Source of the DNA: Lachnospiraceae bacterium
GTDB lineage: Bacteria; Bacillota; Clostridia; Lachnospirales; Lachnospiraceae
Assembly: GCA_016282915.1 (NCBI GenBank)
Contig: JAEELW010000039.1
Coordinates: 1 to 56,787 of the forward strand
Direction: 5' to 3'
DNA: 56,787 nt
In this document: piece by piece, positions 17,458 through 41,970 of the stretch
How the letters are laid out: each line of letters opens with the position of its first letter
How positions within the stretch are numbered: position 1 is the first letter of the stretch
Notes under the pieces: model-generated
The model's database searches: none
What the model was told of the DNA's origin: nothing
The model's input: the letters and a program-made list of their open reading frames with translations, nothing else
Translations under genes and position numbers: made by a program

Positions 17458-18525
17458 ATGGACGTTATTGTATTTGGAACGGGAAGATATTATAAAACAA
17501 AAAAAATAAGTATAGCTGAAAAATATAATATATTGGGTTTTATTGACAATTCTCAGAAGCCGGGAGAAGAAGGGGTATGTGATGGAAAAAGAATGTTAAA
17601 TCCAAGAGATGTTATGGAATATGCGGATGTGCCCATTTTTTTGATGTCAGCGAAATACATGGAAATGTATGAGCAATTGATGGCTCTTGGTGTGGCCAGT
17701 GAAAGAGTGTTATTTGGTATTAATCTGAAACCAGCCTATGATCCTTTTGAAAAAATGATAGAAGAAAATAATGGTAGAATTGTAGTGAGGGAGGGGGCAG
17801 TATCGTTGGAAATAGGAGACAGAGTATATCGGTGTCAAACATCAAAAGAAATGGAAAATATAGTTAGAACTATATATAGAGAGAGTAAACCGGTGATTCA
17901 GATGATACAAAATCTTCCATTGGCGCCTATAAGTAGAAGGTATGGACGTGAACATGGAACACCTGTAGATAGATACTATATTGAGAAATTTCTGGAGTAC
18001 AATAGAGAGAAAGTGCAGGGGATAGTGGCGGAGTTTGCAGATGATTCATATACGAGACGTTATGGAAAGAAAATTATCGAAAACTATATATATCATGTGA
18101 ATGGATGGGGGGAAAATACTAAGAAATTAAATCTTGTGACGGGAGAAGGCGTAGAGGAAGAGATTCTGGATTGCTTAATATGTACGCAGACCATTCAATT
18201 TATATATGAGATAGACACGGCAGTTTACAACATAGTAAAAATGTTGAAAAAGGGTGGATGTGCACTTATTACGGTGCATGGGATAGCACAGATTTCTATG
18301 TATGATTATAATATCTGGGGGGAGTATTGGAGATTTACGAAGAAAACTTTTGATGAGTTGGTTGGAAGTTTTGATATAGGAGGATATGATATACATTCAT
18401 ATGGGAATGTAAAGACTGCAACTGCTATGTTATATGGAGTGGTGGTGGAAGATCTCGAAGAAAAAGATTTTGAATATGATGATGAACAATATCCAGTAGT
18501 TTTGACATTGAAAATAATTAAGTGA
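17458..18525 (+). CDS. Rossmann-module protein with C-terminal methyltransferase-like domain
   Basis: The 355-aa protein has two parts. Residues 1-100 (MDVIVFGTGRYYKTKKISIAEKY, ILGFIDNSQKPGE) are the small Rossmann-like module that recurs in this locus. Residues about 205-350 look like a class I SAM methyltransferase C-terminal half: LDCLICTQTIQFIYEIDTAVYNI, MLKKGGCALITVHG, WGEYWRFTKKTFDELV. A classical GxGxG SAM-binding loop is not evident before it, so the methyltransferase call is moderate. It probably acts on a sugar of the glycan. AGAGG precedes the ATG. The gene is AT-rich like its neighbours. Confidence 0.65.
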   Translation: MDVIVFGTGRYYKTKKISIAEKYNILGFIDNSQKPGEEGVCDGKRMLNPRDVMEYADVPIFLMSAKYMEMYEQLMALGVASERVLFGINLKPAYDPFEKMIEENNGRIVVREGAVSLEIGDRVYRCQTSKEMENIVRTIYRESKPVIQMIQNLPLAPISRRYGREHGTPVDRYYIEKFLEYNREKVQGIVAEFADDSYTRRYGKKIIENYIYHVNGWGENTKKLNLVTGEGVEEEILDCLICTQTIQFIYEIDTAVYNIVKMLKKGGCALITVHGIAQISMYDYNIWGEYWRFTKKTFDELVGSFDIGGYDIHSYGNVKTATAMLYGVVVEDLEEKDFEYDDEQYPVVLTLKIIK

Positions 18526-18557
18526 GATAGTATTGACAAAAAGAAAGGAAATACTAT

Positions 18558-20090
18558 ATGGATTGTCCAAAAGTATATGCAATATATCTTCCTCAATTTC
18601 ATCGGACATTGCATAATGATCAATGGTGGGGAGAAGGTTTTACTGATTGGGAAGCCGTAAAAAAGGCAGTTCCGTTATTTGAAGGACATGAACAGCCGAA
18701 AATTCCTAAAGGGCGGCATTATTATAATCTTCTTGAAAAGAAAGAAATGGAAATGCAGGCGACTACCGCAAATAAATACGGTATAGATGGTTTTATTTTT
18801 TACCATTATTTTTTTGGAGATGGAAGAATGGAACTTGAAAAGCCGGCAGAAAACCTTTTGGGGTGGAAAGATATAGATATGCCATTTTGCTTTAGTTGGG
18901 CAAATCAGTCGTGGATACGTACGTGGAGTAAGATTTCGGGGAATGTGTGGGGGGAGAAATTCGAGAATAAAAAAAATGACGATGATAACGGAATGCTTGT
19001 TGAACAAGAATATGGCGGAGAAAACGAATGGGAGAAGCATTTTGATTATCTTCTCCCATTTTTTTTAGATAAAAGGTATATTAGAATAAACGGTTGCCCG
19101 GTTTTTATCTTTTATAGTCCAATAAATATTGGATGCATAAAAGAGATGATGGGGTGTTGGAGAAAAAGAGCAGTGTCAAGCGGGCTGAAGGGGTTATATT
19201 TGATTGGATACAATTCATTTACAAATGATGTGGGTTTTGATGCACTAATGATGAGTGAGCCAACTTTCAGTATTCGTAAATTGCATAAGTATGGCAGTGT
19301 AGAAGTGAAAAATGGAGTGAGATGCATAGATTTTAACGAATTCATAGAAAATTCTATTGCGACAACTCCGGCTCGAGGGAATAAAACTTACTTTACATGC
19401 GCGTGTGGATATGACACTACTCCAAGGAGAGGGGCAAATGGTGAGTGTATTATAAATAGAACACCAAAGCTGTTTGAAAAATACATGACAGAAATTCTTC
19501 AAAAATCTGTATATCATGATAATGCATTTGTAGCTGTAAATGCATGGAATGAATGGGGAGAGGGGATGTATTTGGAACCTGATGAGGACGATGGGTATGC
19601 TTATTTGGAGGCTATTAGAGATGCGAAAAAATGTATATCTAAAATGAAAGCAGAGGATGTGGAAGAAATAAAAAAAACAATCATGCATAAATATGGAGCG
19701 AGAGAGAATGAACAGGAGTTCTTGCTTGGAAAATTTCAGTATTATTACAAAGTGTGTTCAAAATGGATTGATGTGCTAAATGACAAGGGAAATATATTTA
19801 GTGAGGATTTGATAGAGAAAAATATACATAGTGTCGCAATATATGGATTTGCCGATTTGGGACATAAACTTCTCGAACAGTTAAGGAAAGAGAAAATTAA
19901 AGTTGAATATGCCATAGATCAATATGTTGGAAGTATCAACGGTGATATCATCGTATATCGTCCCGAAGAAGAGCTTCCTATAGTAGATGCTATAATAATA
20001 ACCGCATATGAACCGGATGATATAAAACAGGTATTGCGAAGGAAGGTAGATTGTCCATTGTTTTCCATAAGAGAATTGCTGAAAGCATAG
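18558..20090 (+). CDS. WbsX-like (GH99-related) protein with C-terminal Rossmann module
   Basis: The 510-aa protein begins with the WbsX signature: VYAIYLPQFHRTLHNDQWWGEGFTDW and FCFSWANQSW, then VAVNAWNEWGEGMYLEPD near residue 335. WbsX domains adopt a GH99-like barrel and are common in O-antigen and rhamnan loci, usually called glycosyltransferases, although hydrolase or transglycosylase action is not excluded. From about residue 410 the protein adds the recurring module (VAIYGFADLGHKLLEQL). AAAGGAAATACT precedes the ATG. It lies in a run of AT-rich co-directional genes. Confidence 0.83.
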   Translation: MDCPKVYAIYLPQFHRTLHNDQWWGEGFTDWEAVKKAVPLFEGHEQPKIPKGRHYYNLLEKKEMEMQATTANKYGIDGFIFYHYFFGDGRMELEKPAENLLGWKDIDMPFCFSWANQSWIRTWSKISGNVWGEKFENKKNDDDNGMLVEQEYGGENEWEKHFDYLLPFFLDKRYIRINGCPVFIFYSPINIGCIKEMMGCWRKRAVSSGLKGLYLIGYNSFTNDVGFDALMMSEPTFSIRKLHKYGSVEVKNGVRCIDFNEFIENSIATTPARGNKTYFTCACGYDTTPRRGANGECIINRTPKLFEKYMTEILQKSVYHDNAFVAVNAWNEWGEGMYLEPDEDDGYAYLEAIRDAKKCISKMKAEDVEEIKKTIMHKYGARENEQEFLLGKFQYYYKVCSKWIDVLNDKGNIFSEDLIEKNIHSVAIYGFADLGHKLLEQLRKEKIKVEYAIDQYVGSINGDIIVYRPEEELPIVDAIIITAYEPDDIKQVLRRKVDCPLFSIRELLKA

Positions 20091-20132
20091 TAGAAAGAAT
20101 ATATATTGAGATACTTTTGAAAGGGTGAAAAT

Positions 20133-21161
20133 ATGGATATTACAACTAAATTACAACGAGATAATCCGAAACTATTAGAGTTCTGTAATAAACATAATAA
20201 GATCTATTTATATGGGGCTGGAATAGTCGGGAGTATAATAATAGATTTTTTGCATTCATGTGAGATTTTTCCAGTCGCATTTATTACATCAAAGATTGAA
20301 GGTGAACAGATATTATATAAGAATATACCCGTTATTAGTGTTGATTCTCTTCAAGCTGGATCGGGGGAGGGTATAGTTGTCACTACTAGTGATAAGTATT
20401 GGGATCAGATTTTAGAGACTATAGAGAAAAAAGGTGTCTTTTCTCGGACAGATGTTTTTATAGTTCGAGATTATATTTCCGGTTCATCGAAATATGACTA
20501 TATTGGGACGGAGAAAAATGGGCCGTTTTTTAGTAAATACACTTTTTTAGATGATTTAGGCAGGACTGAGGGGACAGATAAGAACGCTGATTATCATAAT
20601 TATTTGCATATTTATGAATTTTTCCTCAAAGATTTAAAAGATAAAAATGTTTTACTTCTGGAATTAGGCGTTTTTCATGGAGAAAGCTTAAGAATGTGGA
20701 AGAAGTATTTTAGCCGAGGGAGAATAATAGGGGTTGATATTGATAAAAACTGTCAACAGTATAAAGAGGAAAGGATAGAGATTATTACAGGAGATTTGTC
20801 AGAAATAAGTACATATGAAGGGTTGAGAGAACTCGAGGCAAAGATAATCATTGACGATGCACTACATGCATGGAGTCATCAGATTAAGGCTTTTACGGAA
20901 CTGTTTCCGGCTATGCCATCTGGTGGAGTATATATTATGGAAGATATAGGGACAAGCTTTAGGAATTATAAGAATTCCATATATGCAGATCTGAGGGTAA
21001 GTGCATATGAGTTTATGGAAGCTATTTGCGAATTGACCGCGGGGCATGATTTGGCTATTCATGACCAGTTAATAGAATGTAAAGAAGAGATGGAGGCAAT
21101 TGCTATGCAGATAGATATGATTTCATTTATATATGGAAGCTGCATAGTTATTAAAAAGTAA
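20133..21161 (+). CDS. Rossmann module fused to class I SAM methyltransferase
   Basis: The 342-aa protein has the recurring module at about 20-120 (KIYLYGAGIVGSIIIDFL). A methyltransferase domain follows: ADYHNYLHIYEFFLK, LLLELGVFHGESLRMWKKYF with the SAM loop, IIGVDIDKN, IIIDDALHAWSHQIKAFTELF and GGVYIMEDIG. This resembles the sugar O-methyltransferases related to tetracenomycin/rhamnose methyltransferases and cephalosporin-hydroxylase-like proteins (Methyltransf_24 type). It probably O-methylates a sugar in the glycan. AAAGGGTGA precedes the ATG. Confidence 0.8.
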   Translation: MDITTKLQRDNPKLLEFCNKHNKIYLYGAGIVGSIIIDFLHSCEIFPVAFITSKIEGEQILYKNIPVISVDSLQAGSGEGIVVTTSDKYWDQILETIEKKGVFSRTDVFIVRDYISGSSKYDYIGTEKNGPFFSKYTFLDDLGRTEGTDKNADYHNYLHIYEFFLKDLKDKNVLLLELGVFHGESLRMWKKYFSRGRIIGVDIDKNCQQYKEERIEIITGDLSEISTYEGLRELEAKIIIDDALHAWSHQIKAFTELFPAMPSGGVYIMEDIGTSFRNYKNSIYADLRVSAYEFMEAICELTAGHDLAIHDQLIECKEEMEAIAMQIDMISFIYGSCIVIKK

Positions 21162-21240
21162 AGAGCATGATGTAAGTCTTTTTTCAAATTGGATAAATAT
21201 ATGAGCTTTTTTATGTGTTTGTACTACTAGTGGGAATTAA

Positions 21241-22596
21241 ATGATAAAAGAAAATGAAGAAGAAAACAAAATTAAAGTAAGCATAATTATTCCTATATAT
21301 AATATGCAAAAATATGTGTTGAATAGTATAATGAGTGCTTTGAAACAAAGCATTCAAGATATAGAGGTGATTTGTGTTGATGATGGATCAACGGATGAGA
21401 GTTCTCTGATCGTTATGAAAATAAGCGAGACTGATTCTCGAGTAAAATACGTGTATCAGGAGAATCAGGGGGCAGGAGCATCTAGAAATCTTGGGATTTG
21501 CAGAGCACATGGAAAGTATGTTATGTTCCTTGATCCGGATGATATGTTTGATTCTGAACGAGTTGTAGAGATGTTATATTTGGCGTGTGAAAAACATAAT
21601 GTGTTAATTGCCGGAGGATATCACTATGAGGTTTATGACGGAGAGGAGAATTGTAAAATCCCTATATTTCCGAAACTTAATAGTGTTATGGAGAAAGAAA
21701 TAGAGGATAGTGCAGATGATGGAGTGCAAATTGCTTTTGAACAATTTCAAGGGGGGTGCTATCATTGGGATTATATATATAATAAATCTTTTTTGCTAGA
21801 AAACAAGATTAAGTATCCGGATTATAAAAGAAATCAGGATCTTCCGTTTTGGGCTTTGGCTTTTTGGAAATCCAAGCAAATTTATTACGTACATATACCC
21901 ATCGTAGATTACAGAAGAAATGACCCTATTAAGAATCAAAAAGTCAGAAATAATTTCTCTGATATTTTGAGAGGATACAGAGATGTATTGCGCATTGCTA
22001 TTAAAGGTAAAAATGTATACTTGACTCAAAGAATTGCAAATACATTAAACTATAGTAGTAGGAATAGTATAATAAGTAATCTAGATGTAGAATCATTAAG
22101 CATTTTACTTGATATATATACAGTTATACAAGACAGTTGTATTCATGTGGAATTATCTATACTAAATGATATTTGTAATTATTCGAGAAAGGGAATGCGA
22201 TATAAGGATGATATGCGCTATATAGAGACGGAATCAATTAAAAATAGATTAATTAAGATTTACGAGAACAGATTAAGTATAAAACAATTCTTTGAAAGTA
22301 AAGGAATAAAACAATTGATTATATATGGTATGGGGAATAGGGGGCTATATTTATACGATATACTAACGAATGAAGGTATACAAAACATTTGCTGTATGGA
22401 TAAGGAACTAGAACGAATTGGTACCCATAAAGTGTTAAAGCCCGGTGATGATCTTTCAAAATATGGGGAAAAAGTAGCTATACTAGTGTCGCTATCTGCG
22501 GGTAATGAAATATATACTATGTTAAGCGGTATTTATCCGAAAATAAAGATATTTTTAATTGAAGATGTGTTGAATAGCATGATTCTTGAGGTATAA
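21241..22596 (+). CDS. Family 2 glycosyltransferase with C-terminal Rossmann module
   Basis: The 451-aa protein has GT2 motifs at the N-terminus: VSIIIPIYNMQKYV, EVICVDDGSTDES, GAGASRNLG and MFLDPDDMFD (the DxD site). From about residue 350 comes the recurring module (QLIIYGMGNRGLYLYDIL, CCMDKELERIG). The enzyme should add one sugar to a growing glycan from a nucleotide sugar in the cytoplasm. Two more GT2 proteins of the same GT2-plus-module design are at 25188 and 26330. This gene is strongly AT-rich. Confidence 0.86.
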   Translation: MIKENEEENKIKVSIIIPIYNMQKYVLNSIMSALKQSIQDIEVICVDDGSTDESSLIVMKISETDSRVKYVYQENQGAGASRNLGICRAHGKYVMFLDPDDMFDSERVVEMLYLACEKHNVLIAGGYHYEVYDGEENCKIPIFPKLNSVMEKEIEDSADDGVQIAFEQFQGGCYHWDYIYNKSFLLENKIKYPDYKRNQDLPFWALAFWKSKQIYYVHIPIVDYRRNDPIKNQKVRNNFSDILRGYRDVLRIAIKGKNVYLTQRIANTLNYSSRNSIISNLDVESLSILLDIYTVIQDSCIHVELSILNDICNYSRKGMRYKDDMRYIETESIKNRLIKIYENRLSIKQFFESKGIKQLIIYGMGNRGLYLYDILTNEGIQNICCMDKELERIGTHKVLKPGDDLSKYGEKVAILVSLSAGNEIYTMLSGIYPKIKIFLIEDVLNSMILEV

Positions 22597-22606
22597 GGGG
22601 AAGAAT

Positions 22607-23626
22607 ATGACACGTATTATATATGGAACTGGGAAATATGGGATTAAACTATATGATTTTTTTAGGCGGATTGGAGCTGCTGTGGATTATTTTGCACAAA
22701 CGAATGCGCCAATGGAAAAGTATATAGAAGGAATTCCAGTTGTCACATTAGATGATATTGCAAAAATGGAAGATGAATGTATCATCTGTTTAGCAATAAA
22801 GAGTAAGGAGATCACTACAGGAATAATAAGAGATATTCAAAAAATCAACAATAGATCGTTATATGTTTATAATCTTGGTGATTTTTTGACAGAGAATCCT
22901 GTAGTTGCTCATGTGAATTATACTGGGATTCGAAGGTGTTATATTTGTAACAATTCATTTGATCATTTCAAGAGTGGAGGAATAGATGCGGATTTATTTA
23001 AAAAGTATAAGATTATAGGCGGGGGGTATAGAGACGAGTGTATATGTCCATTTTGCGGATCAATGGACCGAGAAAGATGGTTGTTTTATGTGATGAAAGA
23101 GATTTTACACATTGACACGTTTAGAGGGAGAATTCTTCATTTTGCACCGGAATTGTCCATTAAACGAATGATAGAATCGAATTTGGAAGTAGATTATTAT
23201 ACGGGTGATGTTCTGACGGGGAAAGCGATGCATGTTACAGATATTACAAATATGCAGCAATATGGTGATGGAGTTTTTGATTATGTTATAAGCAATCATG
23301 TGTTGGAACATGTTACGATGGAAGAAAAGGCGGTTCATGAAGTTAAACGTGTTTTGAAACAAAGTGGAAAGTGGGTATTTTCTTTTCCTATATGCACCGA
23401 TATGGAGGAAACTTTTGAGGATAAAACAATAGTCGAAGCTGCTGATAGAATGAAATTGTTTGGTCAGGAAGATCATGTTAGATTATATGGAAAAGATTAT
23501 AAAGAGAGATTTGAAGGATATGGATTGAAGATTAAACAATATAGTCCCCAAGATTTGCTGGATGATGATCGAATCAAAAAATGGGGATTAATAAAAAACG
23601 ATGTTATACTTGTAGCAGAGAAATAA
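22607..23626 (+). CDS. Rossmann module fused to Zn-ribbon class I methyltransferase
   Basis: The 339-aa protein starts MTRIIYGTGKYGIKLYDFF, placing the recurring module at residues 1-100. A Cys pair (CYIC) and a second pair (CPFC), separated by about 35 residues, form a likely zinc ribbon. A methyltransferase domain follows: GRILHFAPELSIKRMI, YTGDVLTGKAMHVTDIT, GVFDYVISNHVLEHV, EVKRVLKQSGKWVFSFP. This is a known arrangement for sugar-modifying SAM methyltransferases. The start at 22607 is chosen over 22586 because AAGGGGAAG precedes it and 22586 lies inside the upstream gene. Confidence 0.82.
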   Translation: MTRIIYGTGKYGIKLYDFFRRIGAAVDYFAQTNAPMEKYIEGIPVVTLDDIAKMEDECIICLAIKSKEITTGIIRDIQKINNRSLYVYNLGDFLTENPVVAHVNYTGIRRCYICNNSFDHFKSGGIDADLFKKYKIIGGGYRDECICPFCGSMDRERWLFYVMKEILHIDTFRGRILHFAPELSIKRMIESNLEVDYYTGDVLTGKAMHVTDITNMQQYGDGVFDYVISNHVLEHVTMEEKAVHEVKRVLKQSGKWVFSFPICTDMEETFEDKTIVEAADRMKLFGQEDHVRLYGKDYKERFEGYGLKIKQYSPQDLLDDDRIKKWGLIKNDVILVAEK

Positions 23627-23710
23627 TATGAATGTATTATATACATTTGGAAGTATTTGTTCATGGGCGTAGAAAAAAAAGGAACTGAAGAAGGGGGAGG
23701 AATGGATAAT

Positions 23711-25174
23711 ATGAATAAATCGAGTATTTTCCTTTTTGGAGCCGGACGAAAATGCATGGAGTCATTGGAGATAATTAAGAAACATTATCATGTAATTGCT
23801 ATTGCAGATAATGATAGACAGAAATGGGGGGGATCGATACAGGGAATTCCTATTGTGATGCCGGAAGCACTGAAAAACCATGACGAAAAGGTTGCGATTA
23901 CTGCGGGAATTGGAAACTATGCGGAGATGGTTACTCAATTATTAAAAACGGGAATATCGAGTGAGAGAATATACTATCTGGAGGTAGATCGGTATAGCCA
24001 GGATATTTGTATGCTTTCAGTTGACGGTGAAAGAAAGGGCGAGATAGATTTATCTTTAGAATATTTTGATCTTTTAGGGGGAGAAGATGATTCCGGTGAA
24101 GGGGTTCTTTTATTCTGTAGTTTTTACTCGGCATATCCAATAAAACTTATACGAAATATAAAAAGAAGATTTCCAGATGAAATTATCTCTTTAGTTACGA
24201 ACGATACAAAATATAAAGAGGATCTAAAGGGATTGGTGGAGCATATATATTGCTATAATACTGTTGAAGAGTTGACACATATTTTGGATGCATTGCCGCA
24301 TTATAGAGTTTTTCAGACATTATGGGTAGAAAGTATATGGGCCTTTTTTAGTAAGAAAATGCGTAAGAAATGCGAGCGCTTAAATTTATTCATTGGGGGA
24401 AGCGATTATTACAGAGCAAGTCCGGGGAAATTGGAGTTTAAAAGACGACTGATAGAGGTGGCTGATATAATTGGTATAGAAACAGAGACCGTTCGTGATG
24501 ATTTTATACATACATATCCTGAAGCAAAAGACAAAATTGCGATGTTACGATACGGGTTGGAATATATTGAGAAAGAAGAATATATGCCGCCATTAGATGA
24601 AAGATTTTGTCACTGGGGTATTCCCGAAGGGAAAATGGTTTTTACATGTGCGCATAATGCAGTACGGGCACAAAGGCATATTGAAATGATCAGAGCACTG
24701 AATAAAATGCCGGATTCGATATTAGATAAGTCTTTTTTTGTTTTTCCAATGACATATGGGGATAGTAATGGTTCATATATTGATGAGGTAGAAAAGGAGC
24801 TTGAGCAAACAAATCTGAATTATAAGATTTATCGTGAATATATGGATAGTTCTGAATTTGCTGATCTCATCTCGCTTTCTGATCTGTATATTCATGTACA
24901 AACAACGGATACCTTAAGCACCACAATGTTGGAAGAACTGTATAAAGGTGCTGTTGCTGTAATGGGTTCATGGTTTCCTTATGATGCTCTGGAACAGCGC
25001 GGAATCTTTTATGTGAAGGTTGATAGCATTGATGAACTTACGGAGACCGTTACGGATGTTGTGGAACACTATGCGGAGTATAAAGAAAAATGTGCAAATA
25101 ATCGTAAGATCATTCATGAGATGAGTTCATGGGATAATATGTCTAAAGAATGGATGAAAGCTTGGACTCTATAA
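23711..25174 (+). CDS. Rossmann module fused to a GT-B glycosyltransferase-like protein
   Basis: The protein of about 487 aa starts MNKSSIFLFGAGRKCMESLE, the recurring module, with IAIADNDRQKWGGSIQGIPIV. The rest looks like a GT-B transferase of the Fuc4NAc-transferase/TDP-sugar type: FCSFYSAYPIKLIRNIKRRFP, LFIGGSDYYRAS, VFTCAHNAVRAQRHIEMI, then DLYIHVQTTDTLSTTMLEEL with GAVAVMGSWFPYDA near the C-terminus. The start was chosen because GGGGGAGG lies 10 nt before 23711; ATG at 23702 and TTG at 23657 are in frame and less well placed. The donor and acceptor are unknown. Confidence 0.75.
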   Translation: MNKSSIFLFGAGRKCMESLEIIKKHYHVIAIADNDRQKWGGSIQGIPIVMPEALKNHDEKVAITAGIGNYAEMVTQLLKTGISSERIYYLEVDRYSQDICMLSVDGERKGEIDLSLEYFDLLGGEDDSGEGVLLFCSFYSAYPIKLIRNIKRRFPDEIISLVTNDTKYKEDLKGLVEHIYCYNTVEELTHILDALPHYRVFQTLWVESIWAFFSKKMRKKCERLNLFIGGSDYYRASPGKLEFKRRLIEVADIIGIETETVRDDFIHTYPEAKDKIAMLRYGLEYIEKEEYMPPLDERFCHWGIPEGKMVFTCAHNAVRAQRHIEMIRALNKMPDSILDKSFFVFPMTYGDSNGSYIDEVEKELEQTNLNYKIYREYMDSSEFADLISLSDLYIHVQTTDTLSTTMLEELYKGAVAVMGSWFPYDALEQRGIFYVKVDSIDELTETVTDVVEHYAEYKEKCANNRKIIHEMSSWDNMSKEWMKAWTL

Positions 25175-25187
25175 GGATGCAACATAT

Positions 25188-26363
25188 ATGCGTAGATCAA
25201 ATAGTTTGATTTCGGTTTTAGTAGCGGTATACAATATAAAAGAATACGTTGAAGACTGCATAAAGAGTATTTGTGATCAGTCATATACTGAATTGGAAAT
25301 AATCATTATAGATGATGGGTCAACAGATGGAAGCGAACGTGTATGTGATCGATTGGCGGAGACGGATGATAGAATTGCAGTTTATCATAAGAGTAATGGT
25401 GGACTGGTATCAGCACGAAAATATGCCATGGAAAGAGCGCATGGAGAGTACCTTCTAACCGTAGATGGAGATGATTGTATTAAGCCGGATATGATAGAAC
25501 ATATGTATATGCGGATAAAGGAAACCGATGCTGATGTTGTGCAGTGCGGATACGGGAGCAATCTGTTGACAGAATATGTTTATCCGGATTTTACAATAAA
25601 GGTCTCGGATGATAGCAGGACGGATATTGTAAAAAAGTGGTTGATGCAGGAACCGATATTTGACAGTCAGGTTGTTACAAAACTGTGCAAAAGAGACTTC
25701 CTGAGGGATACTTATGCAAGCGTGCCCGATGAATGCAGCTACAGTGAAGACTGGATTTGGTTTGTCGAATGCGTAAAAAAAGCGTCAATTATTTCATCTC
25801 TTTCTGAAGTCTTCTATGAATACACTATTCGGGAGGGGTCTTTAAGCCATCAAACAGAATATGGTATATCATATTTAATTGATAATGATAGGATGATGAA
25901 CCTTCTTTATTGTCGTATTAAAGAGTATTTTCCGGCATTAGATGACGAATCATTGAAAAGGTGGTATTTGAAGCGTAGAACTGATACATTAAGGACGGTT
26001 TGTAAAAAAGAGTATAATACTGAGATATATCGTTATTCGGGTGATCTTGTGTCGTGCTTGAATGGGAAACGGGTAGCAATTTACGGAGCAGGCGTGATGG
26101 GAGGGGCATTAATTGAGGAGTTGCCCAAATATGAAGATATATCTGTCGTGGCCTGGTTCGATCGGGAAGCAGGATCGAAACAAAGCAATTATAGAAGTGT
26201 GTTGTTCCCGGAAAAAATAAGAGCAATCGATTTTGATAAGCTTGTGATCGCTATTGCTGATGAAAACAGGGCGTATAAAACTGCGCTGGAGATATCGGAA
26301 GAATATGATATTCCTATGGAGAAGATTATATGGAAGTACAGTCGAAAGATGACGCTTTTTTAG
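25188..26363 (+). CDS. Family 2 glycosyltransferase with C-terminal Rossmann module
   Basis: The 391-aa protein has the GT2 signature ISVLVAVYNIKEYVEDCI, EIIIIDDGSTDGSE, GGLVSARKYAMERAHG and LTVDGDDCIK. The C-terminal part from about residue 285 is the recurring module (KRVAIYGAGVMGGALIEEL, VVAWFDREAG). AAGGATGCAAC precedes the ATG. The next gene starts 34 bp before its stop in another frame, so the two are probably coupled. Confidence 0.87.
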   Translation: MRRSNSLISVLVAVYNIKEYVEDCIKSICDQSYTELEIIIIDDGSTDGSERVCDRLAETDDRIAVYHKSNGGLVSARKYAMERAHGEYLLTVDGDDCIKPDMIEHMYMRIKETDADVVQCGYGSNLLTEYVYPDFTIKVSDDSRTDIVKKWLMQEPIFDSQVVTKLCKRDFLRDTYASVPDECSYSEDWIWFVECVKKASIISSLSEVFYEYTIREGSLSHQTEYGISYLIDNDRMMNLLYCRIKEYFPALDDESLKRWYLKRRTDTLRTVCKKEYNTEIYRYSGDLVSCLNGKRVAIYGAGVMGGALIEELPKYEDISVVAWFDREAGSKQSNYRSVLFPEKIRAIDFDKLVIAIADENRAYKTALEISEEYDIPMEKIIWKYSRKMTLF

Positions 26364-27703
26364 AATTGTCAATTATTGTTCCTGTATACAATGTATCAAG
26401 ATATCTGCCGGAGTGCCTTGACTCGTTGATACACCAGAATGTTAAGAACGTTGAGTTTATCTGTATTGATGACGGGTCAACAGATGATTCTTTATCTATT
26501 CTTAAAGAGTATTCATTTCGGGATCCCCGATTTAAAGTGATCAGCAAAGAGAACGAAGGATATGGAAAGACAATGAATTTGGGCTTGGATCAGGCCAAAG
26601 GGAAATATATAGGTGTACTGGAAAGCGATGATGTTGTTTCTGATAATGCGTATTCGCTGTTATTGGAAGTGGCTGAAGAAAGCGACGCAGATATTGTAAA
26701 AGGAAATATACGATTCCTTAGCCAAGAGGGTTGTATGGAGGTGGAAACGTATCGAGGGTTTCCATATCGCAAACTGATTGATCCGCAAAACCAGCTTTCT
26801 ATCTTAACAGCAGGAATTAGTTATTGGAGCGGTATATATAAACGTGAATTCCTAGAAGAGAACAGGATACGCTTTCATGAGACACCCGGGGCATCGTATC
26901 AGGACTATTCCTTTTATTATCTGGCGGTAATGTGCACTGAGAAAATGGAACTAATTGAGGATTATATAGTTAATTATCGTGTTGATAATACAGCTTCATC
27001 TGTTCATGATCCGAATAAGGTTTTCGTTATATGTGAGGAATGTGATCATTTGCGAAAAGAAATGGATGTACGAAAACTGGCGGAGGTATATTATGATATT
27101 GAACCACTTCTTCGTTTTGAGGCATATGAATGGAACTATAAAAGATTGTTGGAATACTATAAATATCCATTCATGGAACGGTTTAAAAAAGAGTTTTCGG
27201 CATTATTGCATGACGGGAGAATAGTTCGATCTTTATGGGATGAGGATTCATATCGAAGACTGGAAATGCTGCTGGATGATCCTTTTTCCTATTATCAGAA
27301 ATTTGCGAGGATCCAATTTGATGATATGCTGGATGAATATCATAGAAAGCTTTTTAGATATAGTAGAAAGGGTATAATCGAGGGCTTGATTGGTGAGGGG
27401 GGGATATACATTTTTGGCGCCGGAAAGACAGGAGCGCTTGTGTTTAAACTGCTCGAGAATAATGGTATGAATGCTGCTGATGATATAAAAGGATTTCTTG
27501 TATCCGGTAAAAAAGAAGATGAGTCTTGTTTTATAGGATTGCAGGTATTTGAGGTTACAGAGCTTCCTGGAAGTGAACGTGATAGATTGGTGATCATCGC
27601 GGTGGGGAAGAATAATCGTGAAATGGTCAAACTGATATTGAAGGAAAATGACTATGAAAATGTCGTGATAGCAGATGATTTTTTCTATGAAGTTTTCAGG
27701 TAA
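26330..27703 (+). CDS. Family 2 glycosyltransferase with C-terminal Rossmann module
   Basis: The 457-aa protein has GT2 motifs LSIIVPVYNVSRYLPECLDSL, EFICIDDGSTDDSL, GYGKTMNLGLDQAKG and GVLESDDVVSD; the metal site is ESDD. Residues about 350-457 carry the recurring module (GGIYIFGAGKTGALVFKLL). It overlaps the preceding gene by 34 nt; GGAGAAG sits just before the ATG within that gene. A G7 tract at 27397-27403 codes for the glycines just before the module. Confidence 0.86.
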   Translation: MEVQSKDDAFLELSIIVPVYNVSRYLPECLDSLIHQNVKNVEFICIDDGSTDDSLSILKEYSFRDPRFKVISKENEGYGKTMNLGLDQAKGKYIGVLESDDVVSDNAYSLLLEVAEESDADIVKGNIRFLSQEGCMEVETYRGFPYRKLIDPQNQLSILTAGISYWSGIYKREFLEENRIRFHETPGASYQDYSFYYLAVMCTEKMELIEDYIVNYRVDNTASSVHDPNKVFVICEECDHLRKEMDVRKLAEVYYDIEPLLRFEAYEWNYKRLLEYYKYPFMERFKKEFSALLHDGRIVRSLWDEDSYRRLEMLLDDPFSYYQKFARIQFDDMLDEYHRKLFRYSRKGIIEGLIGEGGIYIFGAGKTGALVFKLLENNGMNAADDIKGFLVSGKKEDESCFIGLQVFEVTELPGSERDRLVIIAVGKNNREMVKLILKENDYENVVIADDFFYEVFR

Positions 27704-27728
27704 AGCTGGTTTAGAGAATGGTAATTGT

Positions 27729-30164: not shown

Positions 30165-30198
30165 CACATATAAAAGATGGAATGAAAAGGAGAACTGA

Positions 30199-31503
30199 AT
30201 GAGACTGATCTGTGAATCAAGAGGAATAATCAATCGATTGAGACCCGGGGGAAGGATGCAAAACATTCTGGATTCCGGCTTTCAATATGGTGTACTCAGT
30301 GCAGCGGCCTTATGTGAGCCGCTTGAGTTTCGGAATATCAAAAGAAGGAATTTCATGCGAGAGTATGATGTATACTTTACGGAGCATCCCGAAAAGCTGA
30401 AGGCGGAAATGGAGGCAAGCATCATAAAGAATGCAAAAGAGCGGGGGTTTAAGCTGCCTATAGCCATGACGCCTTTAGTCTCGCATGAGGTAAAGGATGA
30501 TGAGGTTGATTCGAAAGTGTTGAAAAAGCTTTCGGAGGAAAGTCTGGAAGCGGCGATAGCAGCAGACTGTGAACGTATCATTGTCCATCCGATGTATATC
30601 GGAATAGACAGTAAGAAATTATGGGAAGAGAATAAGGAGTTTTATTTAATACTTGATAGAATTGCTGATGAAAAAGAAAGCAGTATAAGGATACTTCTGA
30701 TCAACAAAGGAAAGAATATCAACGGTCATCTGATTCGGGGAGTATGCGCGGAAGCGGAAGAAATGGTGCAGTGGGTGGATGAACTGAACCGTCTGGCAGG
30801 AAAGAAACGCTTCGCCTGTTGTTTTGATATCGGTACTGCCACGCTTTGCGGACAGAATCTGTTTGAGGCGATGGTTCCGTTGGGGGACCGGCTGGAGGCG
30901 GTGATCATCCGGGACTGTGACGGTGTGACGGATGTGGCGATGCTGTCATATACAGCCTGCGTCAAGGGGCAGCAGACGGACTGGCTGTATATGATCCGTG
31001 CACTGCGTAAGCTGGAATTTGACGGTGATCTGATCATGGATTTTTCCGACACATATAATGCGTTTCCGGATAGCTTAAGAAAAGCGTTATTATCCATGGC
31101 ATATGATGTGGGGAAGTTCCTGCTGTGGCATATCGACATGGAACGAATGGTGAAGAGTTATAGTAAGCGGGTTCTTTTTGGAGCCGGAAATATGTGCCGC
31201 GCATATATGAAAGACTACGGAAAAGAATATCCGCCTCTATATACCTGCGATAATAACAGTGCACGCTGGGGAGAGGAATTCTGCGGACTGACGATAGAGA
31301 ATCCGGAAAAGCTGAAAGAATTGCCGGAGGATGTGGCGATCTTTATCTGTAATATTTATTATGATGAGATAGAGGGGCAGTTACGGGAGATGAAACTGAA
31401 AAATCCGATCGAACGTTTTAGTGATGAGTACATGGCCACTTTTCATATGGAACGGCTGAAGATGGCAGCGGATCCGAATGCCGGAAAGGGGGCGAAGGCA
31501 TGA
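30199..31503 (+). CDS. Sugar-phosphate isomerase/epimerase-like TIM barrel with lost metal ligands and C-terminal Rossmann module
   Basis: The 434-aa protein has residues about 45-315 of the xylose-isomerase-like (AP endonuclease family 2) barrel type. Compared with its neighbour at 31500, expected metal ligands are changed: LLINKGKNI where MENL is expected, CFDIGTAT instead of CYDTGHGN, AVIIRDCDG instead of LHIHENDG, and MDFSDT instead of FETAP. It is probably not an active metal-dependent isomerase. Residues about 320-420 carry the recurring module (KRVLFGAGNMCRAYMKDY, YTCDNNSARWGEEF). It may regulate or pair with the intact barrel, with which it overlaps by 4 nt (ATGA). AAAAGGAGA precedes the ATG. 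Confidence 0.7.
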   Translation: MRLICESRGIINRLRPGGRMQNILDSGFQYGVLSAAALCEPLEFRNIKRRNFMREYDVYFTEHPEKLKAEMEASIIKNAKERGFKLPIAMTPLVSHEVKDDEVDSKVLKKLSEESLEAAIAADCERIIVHPMYIGIDSKKLWEENKEFYLILDRIADEKESSIRILLINKGKNINGHLIRGVCAEAEEMVQWVDELNRLAGKKRFACCFDIGTATLCGQNLFEAMVPLGDRLEAVIIRDCDGVTDVAMLSYTACVKGQQTDWLYMIRALRKLEFDGDLIMDFSDTYNAFPDSLRKALLSMAYDVGKFLLWHIDMERMVKSYSKRVLFGAGNMCRAYMKDYGKEYPPLYTCDNNSARWGEEFCGLTIENPEKLKELPEDVAIFICNIYYDEIEGQLREMKLKNPIERFSDEYMATFHMERLKMAADPNAGKGAKA

Positions 31504-32447
31504 GCTTGCGGATCGGAGTACAGAGCAAAAATGCAGTATTTGATGAGAGCCCGGCAGAGGGATTTGCCTTGCTGAAAGCCGCCGGTTTTGACTGCTGTGA
31601 TTTTTCTCTGAATAACTATCTGAAAAATACGGATCTGTATCAGGAAAAACTGAATCTTTTTTTTGATCAAAGTGTTTCGGAACTGGAAACATATTTTGCA
31701 CTACATAAAGAGGGTGCAAAGCAGGCAGGGATCTTTATCAACCAGATGCACATGCCCTATCCGACTTTTGTGCCGGGAGCCAAAAAAGAGGTGAATGATT
31801 ATCTCTGGAATGAGGTGGGGCCGAAAAGCATGGAGATCTGCCGTTTTTTGGAATGCCCCAATATAGTGATTCATGGTTTTAAGCTGGATCGTTATTACGG
31901 CAGTGAACAGGCAGAATGGGAAAAGACGGAAGAGTTCATTGAATCTCTTGCGCCTGTAGCAAAGGAATACGGGATCACGATCTGTATGGAAAATCTTTGG
32001 AATACCTTGGGAACACATAAGGTCGAAGGACCCGGATGCAATGCAGTGAAAGCGGTAAAGCGTATCGATTCGATCAATGAAAAATACGGAGCGGAAGTGC
32101 TGGGTTTCTGCTATGATACCGGTCATGGAAATCTGGTGGGGCTGGATCCCTATAAGTTCATAAGCACGTTGGGAAAGCGTCTGAAAGTGCTGCATATACA
32201 TGAAAATGATGGAGCCGAGGATCTGCATCAGCTGCCGTATACTTTTACCCGAACCAGAGAAAACACCAGTGTATTGGATTGGGATGGCGTACTCCGGGGG
32301 CTGAAAGATATAGGCTTTGACGGGGTGTTAAGTTTTGAGACAGCTCCTGTGCTGGATTGTTTTCCGAAAGAACTGAAAGCGGAGGCGCTGCATATGATCG
32401 CGGCGGTTGGCCGATATTTTTCTGCACAGATAGAGAATAACAGGTGA
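31500..32447 (+). CDS. Sugar phosphate isomerase/epimerase (xylose isomerase-like TIM barrel)
   Basis: The 315-aa protein is of usual length for this barrel. Expected metal-binding positions are present: ICMENLWN (Glu), GFCYDTGHGNL (Asp, His), VLHIHENDG (His) and LSFETAP (Glu). The family isomerises or epimerises sugars and sugar acids such as tagatose, xylulose or inosose derivatives. Here it may prepare the carbohydrate or polyol that is later activated with CTP. It is translationally coupled to the degenerate barrel protein upstream and followed 15 bp later by an FkbM methyltransferase gene. Confidence 0.83.
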   Translation: MSLRIGVQSKNAVFDESPAEGFALLKAAGFDCCDFSLNNYLKNTDLYQEKLNLFFDQSVSELETYFALHKEGAKQAGIFINQMHMPYPTFVPGAKKEVNDYLWNEVGPKSMEICRFLECPNIVIHGFKLDRYYGSEQAEWEKTEEFIESLAPVAKEYGITICMENLWNTLGTHKVEGPGCNAVKAVKRIDSINEKYGAEVLGFCYDTGHGNLVGLDPYKFISTLGKRLKVLHIHENDGAEDLHQLPYTFTRTRENTSVLDWDGVLRGLKDIGFDGVLSFETAPVLDCFPKELKAEALHMIAAVGRYFSAQIENNR

Positions 32448-32462
32448 AGTGAGGATGATCTC

Positions 32463-33506
32463 ATGGTAAAGGATTTTGAAATGACACGGGAGGTATACAG
32501 CCATCTTCAGGATGATCTTAGTCGTTTTATCTATGAAGGACGAGTGATGTATTGCCTGACAGGTGATATTTCCTATATGAATCGGGTGAGTAGATCTGTT
32601 CTGGATCGGGATCTGCTGGATGCTATGATGAAGGAATTAGCAAAGATCAGTGATCGCCTTATCGTACGGGGAGCCGGAAATGATTATTCCGTAATCCGGG
32701 AGTTGTATCCTGAATTCGATTTCAAATGTTTCTGCGATTATGATCCTACGAAGATCGGGCAACTGATCGACGGTAGGGAGGTGCTTTCACCGGAAGAATT
32801 CTACAGACAGTATGCGGATCATTATGTGCTGGTCAATTCGGCAGCGGCAAATGGGGAGATCATGGAAGAGTTAAAAGGACATGGTATCCCTGAAGAAAGG
32901 ATTTATAACCTGGCCAAGGCATATGAAGCTATCTGTGACCGGCAGTATTTTGAAAAAGAGATCCTACCGGTATGGGAAAATGAGGTTTTTATCGATGGCG
33001 GCTGTTATGATGGCAGGACGGTAAGGCAGTTTGTAAATTATTGTGATGGAAACTATAAGAAGATCTATTCTCTGGAACCGGATCCGGATAATTATGAAGT
33101 GGCAAAGACAGGATTTGAAAAAGAGCCGGTCAGGGATCTGGCTCTATTGAATAAGGGATTGTGGGATTGTAGTACCAGGCTTTCATTCTCGGGAGGGGCT
33201 TCTCAGGGAGCCAGGATCTCGGATGACGGTTCATTTACAATAGAAACGCTATCTGTTGATGAGCTGGCAGGGGAGGATAAGGTCACATTCATAAAAATGG
33301 ATGTAGAAGGTGCTGAGTATAAGGTTCTTTTGGGAGCTGAAAAGACGATACGGCGGGATCATCCGAAGCTGGCGATCAGTATTTACCATAAGCTTGAGGA
33401 TATCTTCGAACTGCCGGAACTGATCCTATCAATGCAGCAGGATTATCGTTTTTATCTGCGCCATTATCAGTTGGGACAGTACGAAACGGTGTTGTATGCA
33501 ATTTGA
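32463..33506 (+). CDS. Rossmann module fused to FkbM family methyltransferase
   Basis: The 347-aa protein has residues about 60-150 of the recurring module type (DRLIVRGAGNDYSVIRELY, CFCDYDPTKIGQ). From about 178 comes a FkbM domain: EVFIDGGCYDGRTVRQFV (SAM loop), YSLEPDPDNYEVA, ETLSVDEL and FIKMDVEGAEYKVLLGAE. FkbM enzymes O-methylate sugars and polyketides. It probably modifies the glycan or the phospho-polyol. GAGGATGATCTC precedes the ATG, and the LicD gene begins 12 bp after its stop. Confidence 0.85.
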   Translation: MVKDFEMTREVYSHLQDDLSRFIYEGRVMYCLTGDISYMNRVSRSVLDRDLLDAMMKELAKISDRLIVRGAGNDYSVIRELYPEFDFKCFCDYDPTKIGQLIDGREVLSPEEFYRQYADHYVLVNSAAANGEIMEELKGHGIPEERIYNLAKAYEAICDRQYFEKEILPVWENEVFIDGGCYDGRTVRQFVNYCDGNYKKIYSLEPDPDNYEVAKTGFEKEPVRDLALLNKGLWDCSTRLSFSGGASQGARISDDGSFTIETLSVDELAGEDKVTFIKMDVEGAEYKVLLGAEKTIRRDHPKLAISIYHKLEDIFELPELILSMQQDYRFYLRHYQLGQYETVLYAI

Positions 33507-35759: not shown

Positions 35760-35772
35760 AAAAGTGTGTATC

Positions 35773-36804: not shown

Positions 36805-36832
36805 GGTATACCTCCCGGTACGTAACTTGTTT

Positions 36833-36903
36833 ATTACTTTTTATTTGTTTTGGACCGCTTTATTACTTTTTATTAGTTTGAATTTATTTTATCACTTTTT
36901 ATT
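36833..36903. repeat. Three direct repeats at 29-bp spacing in a divergent promoter region
   Basis: ATTACTTTTTATT occurs at 36833-36845 and 36862-36874, and as ATCACTTTTTATT at 36891-36903. Starts are exactly 29 bp apart. On the minus strand they read AATAAAAAGTAAT and lie just upstream of the ATPase gene. They are likely binding sites for a regulator, perhaps one of the two divergent gene products. Confidence 0.75.
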
Positions 36904-36939
36904 ACTTTTGCAAGCACTGATTGTAAATAAAATAAAAAA

Positions 36940-36968
36940 TTGACAGCGATAAAAAAATCCTCTATACT
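36940..36968 (+). promoter_or_regulatory. Sigma-A promoter of the HTH-HipA-like gene
   Basis: TTGACA (36940-36945) and TATACT (36963-36968) are separated by exactly 17 bp, a near-consensus promoter. Transcription should begin near 36975, leaving only about 14 nt before the GTG start, which has GGAGGGG 5 nt upstream. Confidence 0.88.
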
Positions 36969-36988
36969 TGATAATTGGAGGGGATGGT

Positions 36989-38260: not shown

Positions 38261-38622
38261 TCAACAATCTGAAAGGTGTTCTGTATTACCTGGACACGCC
38301 CCTGCTTGACTTTGAGATAAAGGACAGGACTTTGGTCAGGGCGACAGACTTGAACAATGGGAAGTATTTTCCGCCGGAACTTGCGCTGTGGGGAGTCAGT
38401 TACGGGAATATCAATGCATTCTTTGAACGCCGGACCATGAAGGAAGGGTGCATGTTTTATCGGGAACACTTAAGGGCGATCGGAATGGAACGTTTTGATT
38501 TTGATACCTATATCCGGAAGAATAACGGTAACAATACGCTGGATAATTACTGGGTGAGATTCCCGGATTTCGGAGCAAGGTGCTTTAAGGATATCGTGGA
38601 GAAGAATTATGGGTTTATTTAA
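38242..38622 (+). CDS. Small protein of unknown function, partner of HipA-like kinase
   Basis: The 126-aa protein (MAEVRLINNLKGVLYYLD) is not recognised. It contains PPELALWGVSYGNINAFFE, RTMKEGCMFYREH and NTLDNYWVRF. It overlaps the kinase gene by 19 nt at the start and the next small gene by 14 nt at the end, so the three are translated as a unit. Position and size suggest a kinase partner: an antitoxin, a substrate, or an N-subdomain-like cofactor as in some split HipA systems. That is an inference from context. Confidence 0.6.
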   Translation: MAEVRLINNLKGVLYYLDTPLLDFEIKDRTLVRATDLNNGKYFPPELALWGVSYGNINAFFERRTMKEGCMFYREHLRAIGMERFDFDTYIRKNNGNNTLDNYWVRFPDFGARCFKDIVEKNYGFI

Positions 38623-39207: not shown

Positions 39208-39256
39208 GATGAAAAGCTTATGCGGCTATTCATCCGGGACAAAGGAGATAAGAAAT

Positions 39257-40495
39257 ATGAACCTGATAAGCGAACGTTATCTGGATGACGGATGTGCGAC
39301 AATCGAACTGACGGAGTTGCAGAAAGAGCACATAAGGATCTTTACGGAAAAGTGCAGAAGCGGTGAATATCGTTTCAGAGACCGTGAATGCGAGTGTGGA
39401 CACGGTGATTTTGAAGTGATCGCAAAGAAAGACAGATACGGCATTCCAATGGATACGGTCATCTGCAAAAACTGCGGGCTGATCATGACTTCACCCTGTC
39501 TGGATGACAAAAGCAATAATGAGTTTTACGACAAGGATTATCCCTTGATATACAGAGCGGTGGAAAAGCCCTCGGAAGAACAGTTTCTTGAAGCACGGAA
39601 AGACGGTGATACTATTGTCGATTTTATCCGAAGGCATAAAGGTCCTCTTTCGGGTGAGGTTTTGGAAACGGGCTGTGCAGATGGAAGAAATATCATTGCT
39701 TTTAAGGAAAAAGGATACGATACACTGGGGCTCGATCTTTCGCACAGCTATGTTGAATTTGGAAGAAGCAAAGGACTTGATCTGTTTTGTTCGGACCTGT
39801 CTTCCTTTGATTTTGGGGACAGGCAATTCGATATCATCGTATTGAGCCATGTGTTGGAGCATTTTACGGACCTTGGAAAAGAGCTTGGGGTGATAAGAGG
39901 TCTGTTGAAGGATGAGGGTGTTTTGTATATCGCGCTTCCGGGTATTAAAAATCTGAGTTATGGGGCATACAGGGCAGATTTTCTGCAGATGCTTCAGAAT
40001 GCCCATATTTTCAATTTTTCAAAAAAGTCATTGTGCAGGGTCATGAAAAAGTATGGCTTTGAGAGTGTTTACTGCAATGAGGCGATCGCCGGAGTTTTCC
40101 GGAAATGTGAACCGGAGGAAAATGGGGAAAACGTCTATGAGGAAACGCTTGCCTATCTGAAGAGTATAGAAGCTGCAAAAGGAGACCTGAGGCTCCTGTG
40201 GCATAGCAGGGCGAACGATATCATTTCAAAATATGGCCCCGGTGAAGTGCTCCTGTATGGCGGAGCAGCGGAACTTGATGATTGCGTGCAAAACCTGAAG
40301 GATCTGGATTCGATCAAAGGCTTTTTTTATCCGGACCGGAAAACACCTGCACAGGTCATCGAATATATCCGGTCGGCGGGAGCAGGCTTGAAATGCCTTC
40401 TGGTCGCGGATATGGCGGATCTGAACCGGGTATATGATTTTGAGGAACTGTTTGATGAGCTGGATGTATATTCTCTTTACAGTGAAATCTACTAA
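39257..40495 (+). CDS. Zn-ribbon class I methyltransferase with C-terminal Rossmann-like region
   Basis: The 412-aa protein starts MNLISERYLDDGCATIELTE. A Cys-rich N-terminus (CECGHGDF, VICKNCGLIMTSP) is a zinc-binding segment. The methyltransferase core has EVLETGCADGRNIIAFKEKG (SAM loop), TLGLDLSHSYVEFG and FDIIVLSHVLEHF. From about residue 315 LLYGGAAELDDCVQNLK recalls the recurring Rossmann module in degenerate form. It probably methylates a sugar. The start is set by AAAGGAGAT 8 nt before 39257; an ATG at 39194 overlaps the upstream gene. Confidence 0.82.
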   Translation: MNLISERYLDDGCATIELTELQKEHIRIFTEKCRSGEYRFRDRECECGHGDFEVIAKKDRYGIPMDTVICKNCGLIMTSPCLDDKSNNEFYDKDYPLIYRAVEKPSEEQFLEARKDGDTIVDFIRRHKGPLSGEVLETGCADGRNIIAFKEKGYDTLGLDLSHSYVEFGRSKGLDLFCSDLSSFDFGDRQFDIIVLSHVLEHFTDLGKELGVIRGLLKDEGVLYIALPGIKNLSYGAYRADFLQMLQNAHIFNFSKKSLCRVMKKYGFESVYCNEAIAGVFRKCEPEENGENVYEETLAYLKSIEAAKGDLRLLWHSRANDIISKYGPGEVLLYGGAAELDDCVQNLKDLDSIKGFFYPDRKTPAQVIEYIRSAGAGLKCLLVADMADLNRVYDFEELFDELDVYSLYSEIY

Positions 40496-41967: not shown

Positions 41968-41970
41968 GCG

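Follow-up and report, generated by a model that had tools for sequence, protein, structure and literature searches.

Why should almost every enzyme of one glycan locus carry the same small domain, now at one end of the protein and now at the other? The question is raised by a contig of Lachnospiraceae bacterium (GenBank assembly GCA_016282915.1, contig JAEELW010000039.1; C73 in our numbering of this 3.85 Mb genome), whose 56,787 nucleotides, called here the window, are a large glycan-gene region. Between 17458 and 33506, 11 of 12 consecutive genes encode a module of about 95 residues, which starts with a hydrophobic strand and typically [YF]G-x-G-x-x-[GASC], usually followed by an Asp that ends strand 2 and then by a G-x-P-V-type turn; five of the proteins have it at the N-terminus, five at the C-terminus and one inside. 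By what means soluble glycan enzymes reach lipid-linked intermediates and stay there, and how flux is adjusted to nucleotide by-products, is to our knowledge an open question. A first-pass annotation of this DNA had pointed to one Rossmann-like module shuffled onto unrelated glycan enzymes, but the first segment is only 10-25% identical to the other ten, and homology therefore needed testing.

In a leave-one-out design, a hidden Markov model (HMM) of ten segments was run against the window's 168 open reading frame (ORF) products of at least 70 residues together with 200 shuffles of the eleventh segment. Ten of the 11 modules were recovered (E 1.7e-4 to 2.2e-17, 14.9-57.5 bits), all of them above the best of their own 200 shuffles (2.7-11.7 bits), and the margin was smallest for 20133 (14.9 bits versus 11.7 for the best shuffle). 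The C-terminal segment of 18558 was not recovered by this procedure (E 1.7, 1.5 bits, under its best shuffle at 7.0 bits) and is joined to the family, at the level of profiles, through outside relatives: a profile of 37 stand-alone relatives from other genomes matches it at E 5.2e-28, and the HMM of the other ten window modules matches 36 of these 37 at E <= 1e-3. Judged by sequence comparison, the eleven strong sites carry one homologous segment, as had been noticed. That any Rossmann domain would match is ruled out by the Rossmann-type domains of 8689 and 10044 (Gfo/Idh-like by eye), which the leave-one-out HMMs do not recognise, so that we deal with a distinct family and not with any Rossmann fold; it belongs, as one branch, to a large Rossmann superfamily, and Rex-sized proteins also turn up when profile searches are made wide. 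In the window's own genome the eleven-row profile has 13 matches at E <= 1e-3, 11 of which are the modules that built it, the other two being a TylF-type methyltransferase (C99) and a CapD-type dehydratase (C173).

The three weaker sites of the first-pass annotation fared unequally. The N-terminal segment of 47310 matches Pfam C2185-like_N (E 2.5e-6, 28.1 bits over a cut-off of 27) and the module profile at E 0.0048; that of 5586 (module profile E 0.013) is probably a diverged module, considering that a full-length homologue, L081:8427-9533, has the module at the same place (E 2.2e-54); the C-terminal segment of 39194 was rejected (E 1.9). The 32463 scan of viral contigs gave three pattern matches, none of which is a relative. 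The copies in the window, with a module-free paralogue as internal control, are the following.

17458..17733, + strand: N-terminal module of a methyltransferase-like protein (17458-18525); leave-one-out E 8.6e-6; own-genome profile match (part of the profile); partner Methyltransf_11 E 0.004, below cut-off.
19824..20087, + strand: C-terminal module of a WbsX protein (18558-20090), of the subtype of the stand-alone modules; leave-one-out fails; profile of 37 outside stand-alone proteins E 5.2e-28; WbsX E 8e-111.
20193..20477, + strand: N-terminal module of a Methyltransf_24-type methyltransferase (20133-21161); leave-one-out E 1.7e-4; partner E 3.4e-6.
22306..22578, + strand: C-terminal module of a GT2 protein (21241-22596); leave-one-out E 1e-6; GT2 E 3.3e-29.
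22604..22894, + strand: N-terminal module of a methyltransferase (ORF 22586-23626, first ATG 22607); leave-one-out E 6.1e-7; Methyltransf_11 E 5.8e-10.
23717..23998, + strand: N-terminal module of a putative GT-B protein (ORF 23657-25174); leave-one-out E 2.2e-17; AlphaFold2 pLDDT 94.1; partner weakly Glyco_transf_56, E 2e-4, below cut-off.
26064..26357, + strand: C-terminal module of a GT2 protein (25188-26363); leave-one-out E 3e-6; GT2 E 5e-33.
27398..27691, + strand: C-terminal module of a GT2 protein (26330-27703); leave-one-out E 8.3e-5; GT2 E 2.9e-34.
29325..29609, + strand: internal module between a methyltransferase-like N-part and a cytidylyltransferase-like C-part (27675-30164); leave-one-out E 7.4e-9; CTP_transf_like E 7.5e-16 at 690-817; Methyltransf_23 E 9e-4, below cut-off.
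31159..31443, + strand: C-terminal module of a TIM-barrel protein (30199-31503); leave-one-out E 5.6e-13; barrel without Pfam match, but matching 31500 (27% identity, 271 aa).
31500..32447, + strand: module-free paralogue of the 30199 barrel, the internal control; AP_endonuc_2 E 7.1e-23; absent from the module matches; residues 59-315 align to 30199 residues 53-316.
32652..32933, + strand: N-terminal module of an FkbM methyltransferase (32463-33506); leave-one-out E 7e-11; Methyltransf_21 E 8.4e-15.
5586..5880, + strand: probable diverged module, N-terminal, of a radical SAM protein (5586-6698); module profile E 0.013; homologue L081:8427-9533 with a clear module at 3-83; Radical_SAM E 1.4e-8.
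47310..47582, + strand: diverged module (C2185-like_N) of a DUF1919 protein (47310-48209); PF22674 E 2.5e-6; DUF1919 E 3e-49; module profile E 0.0048.

Is the module, then, a part of the enzymes that bear it? The products of 30199 and 31500 share the same TIM barrel, and their alignment reaches the last residue of 31500 and stops at residue 316 of 30199, immediately ahead of its module; the GT2 proteins 48206 and 4510 of the same window are likewise without it. Together with the stand-alone modules described below, these proteins refute, for these cases, the view that the segment is an integral part of a catalytic domain. Its separateness, supposed from the beginning, is thus upheld, and it is well supported that the module is an add-on to an otherwise complete enzyme and its own folding unit. 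The AlphaFold2 model of one window module, from the 23657-25174 product (pLDDT 94.1), has the anticipated Rossmann-like fold with five strands and shows a further terminal strand at 98-103.

The same proteins bear on the idea of a substrate domain, which would bind its enzyme's own nucleotide sugar or acceptor, share in catalysis and vary by enzyme. The N-domain of PglD, VioB and PerB binds its enzyme's own nucleotide sugar or acceptor, and both the PglD_N-type relatives of our module and the conservation of the partner label on the module tree (below) would agree with such a role. It is nevertheless hard to reconcile with the module-free 31500 and 48206, with the enzyme-free copies and with partners for which no use of a nucleotide sugar is expected (the TIM barrel, methyltransferases), and we regard it as very improbable.

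Among 150 genomes of the same family (the window's own included), 27 hold at least four matches at E <= 1e-4, with a maximum of 19; this tally counts genomes and not loci, and among the places listed many matches gather on single contig stretches. We give prevalence in this form since the single-match tallies (99 of 150 in the family, 133 of 249 in the phylum) include open frames of about 210-250 aa, a length like that of Rex. Outside the family, where single matches are mixed with such Rex-sized proteins, groups of five or six module matches were seen (G371:C13, G278:C4). The survey bears out the supposed concentration in glycan loci. For closer analysis 40 stretches picked for matches were joined by 38 loci of titled genomes (18 Lachnospiraceae, one Bacteroidales); all were picked for having modules, so that their statistics are descriptive, and the sample is mainly from one Bacillota family. 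From the first set, the window included, came 206 modules, of which 91 are N-terminal, 88 C-terminal and 9 internal, while 18 are short or alone; the second set added 148. Four of these 354 matches covered too few profile positions and were dropped, and merging of identical ones reduced 350 to 337 distinct modules. Two loci, L087 and L103, largely repeat L072 and L080 (78 and 67 of 82 sampled 200-base words); they were dropped from the counts of GT2 per locus and of hydropathy, merged as loci in the clustering and the tree, and are still in the stand-alone and WbsX counts.

The partner remainders fall into 84 clusters by phmmer single linkage, 42 of them single-member; as such linkage may split distant relatives, this is not a count of enzyme families. 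A Pfam scan, made on 56 of the 57 representatives of an earlier, smaller clustering (one running off its contig was dropped), found methyltransferases, radical SAM, GT2, Glycos_transf_1, FkbM, epimerase, hexapeptide transferase, WbsX, RgpF and other types. With N-terminal, C-terminal and internal placement on so many partners, the shuffling of one module onto unrelated enzymes stands as first described. Two modules in one protein were seen in L070:9528-11216 (consecutive) and L100:5543-7978. Nine modules lie within 16 kb of L110, a metagenome bin whose record is titled Bacteroidales bacterium isolate NALB_7861_11, which reflects either cross-phylum transfer or a wrongly assigned contig.

Does the gathering of modules concern all copies of an enzyme type, or those in the arrays? 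In four genomes with 107 GT2 domain matches, the module is on 9 of 9 within arrays of at least four and on 1 of 98 outside, the sole outside case sitting 2.6 kb from an array; array bounds were taken from modules on other proteins, the tally was made by hand, and a few ORFs hold two GT2 matches. In the 43 sampled loci with at least four modules 63 of 83 GT2 proteins bear it, compared with 3 of 32 in the 34 loci with one to three. The module on GT2 within arrays is a tendency, not an all-or-none rule. A FastTree phylogeny of 336 modules (a single row was excluded for having more than 25 gaps) required 71 changes of partner label, against a mean of 153.6 and a lowest value of 148 in 50 shuffles, with 94 rare-partner rows unlabelled in this count; for locus labels it required 290, against a mean of 302.7 and a lowest value of 297. 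These counts indicate that the module tends to keep its partner and that the arrays do not come from local duplication; recent tandem duplication inside the locus is ruled out by the low identity and the tree. A promiscuous domain without shared function, spreading with the glycan genes and retained by chance, could be imagined from the 10-25% identity to the first row and from the fast shuffling for which glycan loci are known; it is contradicted by the conserved motif, the old partner-specific lineages and the clustering, and appears to us extremely improbable.

The same kind of loci contain the module without any enzyme (47 distinct ORFs in 39 loci); Anaerocolumna sedimenticola (L090) is one of the bacteria with such a gene. 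This stand-alone protein of about 160 residues has an N-terminal stretch that in many cases is hydrophobic and rich in Gly and Ala, together with a helix bearing a [YF]Y-x-x-L-N-x-W-L-like signature and with the module; its AlphaFold2 model has a helix at 2-55 and then the module (pLDDT 88.3, pTM 0.74). A hydropathy of 1.8 over 19 residues is reached by 29 of 46 distinct short proteins versus 10 of 279 enzyme-linked ones (31 of 46 versus 28 of 279 at 1.6), and from hydropathy we infer that the stand-alone protein may be membrane-anchored. Neither Pfam nor NCBIfam has a model that names it, and it matches NAD-binding and CoA-binding families and Rex weakly. Paired stand-alone module genes occur at L103:7486-8474 and L111:3480-4509, and a second stand-alone kind of 105-117 residues, lacking the hydrophobic stretch, at L078:6028-6378, L074:3461-3814, L047:11394-11723 and L118:4294-4611.

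WbsX is represented by 15 ORFs, of which six, including that of the window, are fusions with the stand-alone module subtype without its N-terminal stretch. The other nine make seven cases (one locus was fetched twice, and one WbsX is split in two ORFs): in six of them a stand-alone gene is 0-48 bases away, and the seventh, L083:17414-18490, shares 7 bases with a short module gene (16965-17420) without the stretch. A search with the stand-alone protein had led to five of these loci, whose adjacency is for this reason no independent evidence; L080 and L083 were retrieved otherwise; in L110 and L111 the fused WbsX also has a stand-alone gene adjoining. Fusion in some loci and adjacency in others suggests that WbsX and the stand-alone module cooperate.

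Pure docking, where module-module contacts build a multi-enzyme complex and the nucleotide site is a fossil, would account for this pairing with WbsX, for the co-clustering of module bearers, for the incomplete motif of some modules (6 of the 11 in the window) and for the dimerisation of the WbaP domain reported in PMC10942596. The motif itself makes it improbable. In 337 modules the first Gly is present in 98.5%, and the second Gly, the small third residue and Asp/Glu in 86% each (Asp alone in 287 of 337); 60 short proteins (<200 residues, contig-end fragments included) keep the first Gly and Asp in 60 of 60 and all four positions in 78%. Among the 37 aligned stand-alone proteins there is no variation in the first Gly, the third Gly or the Asp. 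Without an attached enzyme the motif is thus no less strict; a Gly loop and Asp so conserved, with three of four positions invariant in the enzyme-free proteins, do not look like a fossil, and there is hardly any likeness of modules within loci.

The largely preserved site could also belong to a purely regulatory sensor, which detects a common small molecule (UMP/UDP, NADH or a nucleotide sugar) and adjusts, in cis and without a scaffold, the enzyme that bears it. The redox sensor Rex is among the nearest sequence relatives, and the WbaP authors propose side-product feedback, an idea that they extend to PglF-like dehydratases (PMC10942596). This is a possible account, which we consider somewhat unlikely: it leaves unexplained the enzyme-free copies with intact motif, the N-terminal, C-terminal and internal placement on many partners, and the gathering of module bearers. 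Between the common ligand and the docking function that the first-pass annotation had offered, the evidence, as far as sequences can tell, fits a mixture, with a ligand motif largely kept and copies free of any enzyme.

The annotation knew of no established role for such a module, and in this respect it has to be corrected by the WbaP accessory domain, a relative by profile and by structure, for which dimerisation and a response to uridine nucleotides are reported. In the WbaP study (PMC10942596, eLife 2024), inter-chain contacts of the dimer are mostly in this domain, through a beta-hairpin swap; the isolated domain is potentially stabilised by UMP, UDP and UTP as ligands, and UDP-Gal destabilises it; WbaP is inhibited by UMP with an apparent IC50 of 4.1 uM; and the presence of its N-terminal domains on PglF-like dehydratases as well, two unrelated kinds of enzyme, is termed puzzling, with feedback by a pathway side-product suggested. 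For EpsZ, a large phosphoglycosyl transferase (PGT) whose domain has no hairpin, PMC12802240 (mBio 2025) proposes activation by a response regulator through a direct dimer-favouring interaction. Both fixed forms are present in the window's own genome: C120 is a Bac_transf protein with PF13727, and C173 is the CapD-type protein. On the basis of these forms and of the WbaP and EpsZ accounts, we propose that the module may be a non-catalytic nucleotide-binding association or regulatory domain, which co-assembles or co-regulates the enzymes of one glycan pathway; this is the best reading we can offer, and we hold it tentatively, as something short of probable.

The module would be a free-standing, mobile, non-catalytic member of the CoA_binding/PglD_N/CoA_binding_3 group, joined long ago and repeatedly to different enzymes of surface-glycan assembly, whose bearers became gathered in an operon-like block. 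Each copy would be its own folding unit added to a complete enzyme, which is well supported. Many copies would use the Gly loop and the strand-2 Asp to bind a nucleotide, the likeliest being a uridine nucleotide or one of the pathway's nucleotide sugars, a step moderately supported by the motif and the relatives. The modules may then associate mutually or with related domains of membrane proteins (the stand-alone protein in genomes that have it, the large PGT, the PglF/CapD-type dehydratase), as WbaP and the enzyme-free copies lead us to propose, so that soluble enzymes would be kept near the lipid-linked glycan and activity or assembly would track the nucleotide level. The family, its fold, its add-on nature, the clustering and the enzyme-free form are supported by our results; to these the proposal adds a putative ligand, putative contacts, membrane recruitment and regulation.

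A number of our own observations weigh against the association domain. No stand-alone copy was found in the window's genome, where the two matches of its profile are the modules of 18558 and 21241, so the stand-alone form is not a required hub; it is clear in 7 of the 150 family genomes, or 9 with partial cases, and 17 of 46 short proteins are under hydropathy 1.8, which makes their anchoring unsure. Module identity within arrays is 0.2063 versus 0.2031 expected, a value reached by 15 of 500 permutations, so that no locus-specific matching code is visible, and such a code in overall identity is rejected at an excess of 0.003. The four genomes of the GT2 test are a small sample of related bacteria, and in one of them (G125) a three-module group (C1:1331726-1339642) holds two module-free GT2 matches, giving 9 of 11 if counted; 20 of 83 GT2 proteins in the 43 loci with at least four modules lack the module. 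All four motif positions are present in 62% of the 337 modules and in 5 of 11 in the window, where Asp is missing from three of 11 (20133, 22586, 26330), and one partner cluster (cluster 5) has Val for Asp in 10 of 10 modules with the first two Gly retained, which, from the residues, may be either a change of ligand or its loss. Through such losses of Asp, some copies may bind no nucleotide.

The proposal can be widened to a general assembly line, so far undescribed, where the soluble enzymes of a surface-glycan locus (glycosyltransferases, methyltransferases, epimerases, radical SAM enzymes) would plug together and into membrane-bound module proteins via nucleotide-gated homotypic modules, with the UMP/UDP or nucleotide-sugar level timing complex formation; we consider it unlikely. 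If true, the domain common to WbaP and PglF would be the membrane-bound member of such a line. In any case a WbaP-related domain is now seen on a much wider range of glycan enzymes, whose partner sequences form 84 clusters in our sample, and also without an enzyme. The stand-alone form gives a small object for direct tests of ligand and partners, and annotators could unite as one module the copies that are now unnamed or spread over several partner-named Pfam families.

Some features of the surroundings may be added. The GC content of the module array (17458-33506) is 38.6%, compared with 51.6% at 1-13600 and 51.7% at 40600-56787, a drop that points to an acquired block. The product of 27675-30164 is one protein of 829 residues, in which a methyltransferase-like part is followed by a long stretch without assignment (kinase-like by eye, presumably WbdD-like), the module and a cytidylyltransferase. 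The cluster is opened by a NusG-like protein by eye (7790-8671), perhaps a specialised antitermination factor, which we take to be of the LoaP type; a second NusG-like protein at 49771 adjoins apparent L11 and L1 ribosomal genes (by eye). A minus-strand ATPase and a HipA-like pair at 35773-38622, insertion-like by eye, lie within the glycan cluster. Where the glycan genes end, a FliD_C-like flagellar protein is encoded (40663-41967; PF07195, E 5e-9), and given this neighbour the window's glycan may serve flagella.

How does the module compare with known systems? Among the open-access papers listed by our searches, judged by title and opening of the abstract, we found no description of such module arrays, and what appears new is the module's use, as clustered copies on unrelated enzymes and as a separate protein of about 160 residues. 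Its fold is not new, being closest to 2g6t, 3nkl, Rex and the accessory domain of WbaP, and the family has the Gly loop, strand-2 Asp, G-x-P-V-type turn and sheet of the CoA_binding/PglD_N/CoA_binding_3 Rossmann-like group. The NAD(H)-binding domain of Rex aligns with it in Gly loop, Asp and G-x-P-V turn (profile E 6.5e-9), yet Rex is a transcription regulator with a DNA-binding domain, and no Rex-type DNA-binding domain is among the Pfam matches of the window partners. The uncharacterised C. acetobutylicum protein 2g6t, which we take to be the CAC2185 behind Pfam C2185-like_N, is near the module; the Pfam model (PF22674) spans a narrow branch and has one match on the 11 strong modules (E 0.086), with none over its gathering cut-off.

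PglD_N (PF17836), solved with sugar nucleotides according to entry titles, is related in fold and in sequence, as had been anticipated, yet the window modules stay below its gathering cut-off: 3 of 11 match weakly (best E 6e-4), and in a search of the own genome nothing passed the cut-off, with 0 matches at E <= 1e-3. An outside module, the second of L070:9528-11216, does pass it (28.1 bits). In PglD, VioB and PerB this domain is joined to a hexapeptide transferase, unlike the window modules, on whose 11 partners Hexapep has no match at E <= 1; it is matched by 2 of the 56 partner representatives. The Methyltransf_14 domain of sugar C-methyltransferases (4rv9) and the N-domain of the FkbM protein 2py6 match the profile weakly (E 0.035 and 0.017), and the first module of L100:5543-7978 passes the Methyltransf_14 cut-off; each of the two domains is known with one kind of partner, whereas the module here is on many.

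The nearest parallels are fixed forms. The structure 3nkl, titled UDP-D-quinovosamine 4-dehydrogenase and presumably the N-domain of a PglF/CapD-type enzyme, belongs to a fixed PglF-type context, unlike our module. CoA_binding_3 (PF13727), the accessory domain of the WbaP type, matches only C120 and C173 in the own genome at E <= 0.01, and no window module; the general fold is common to both, but WbaP has the domain in a fixed place, with a four-helix bundle on one side and the catalytic core on the other, while the module described here is found on many enzymes and alone.

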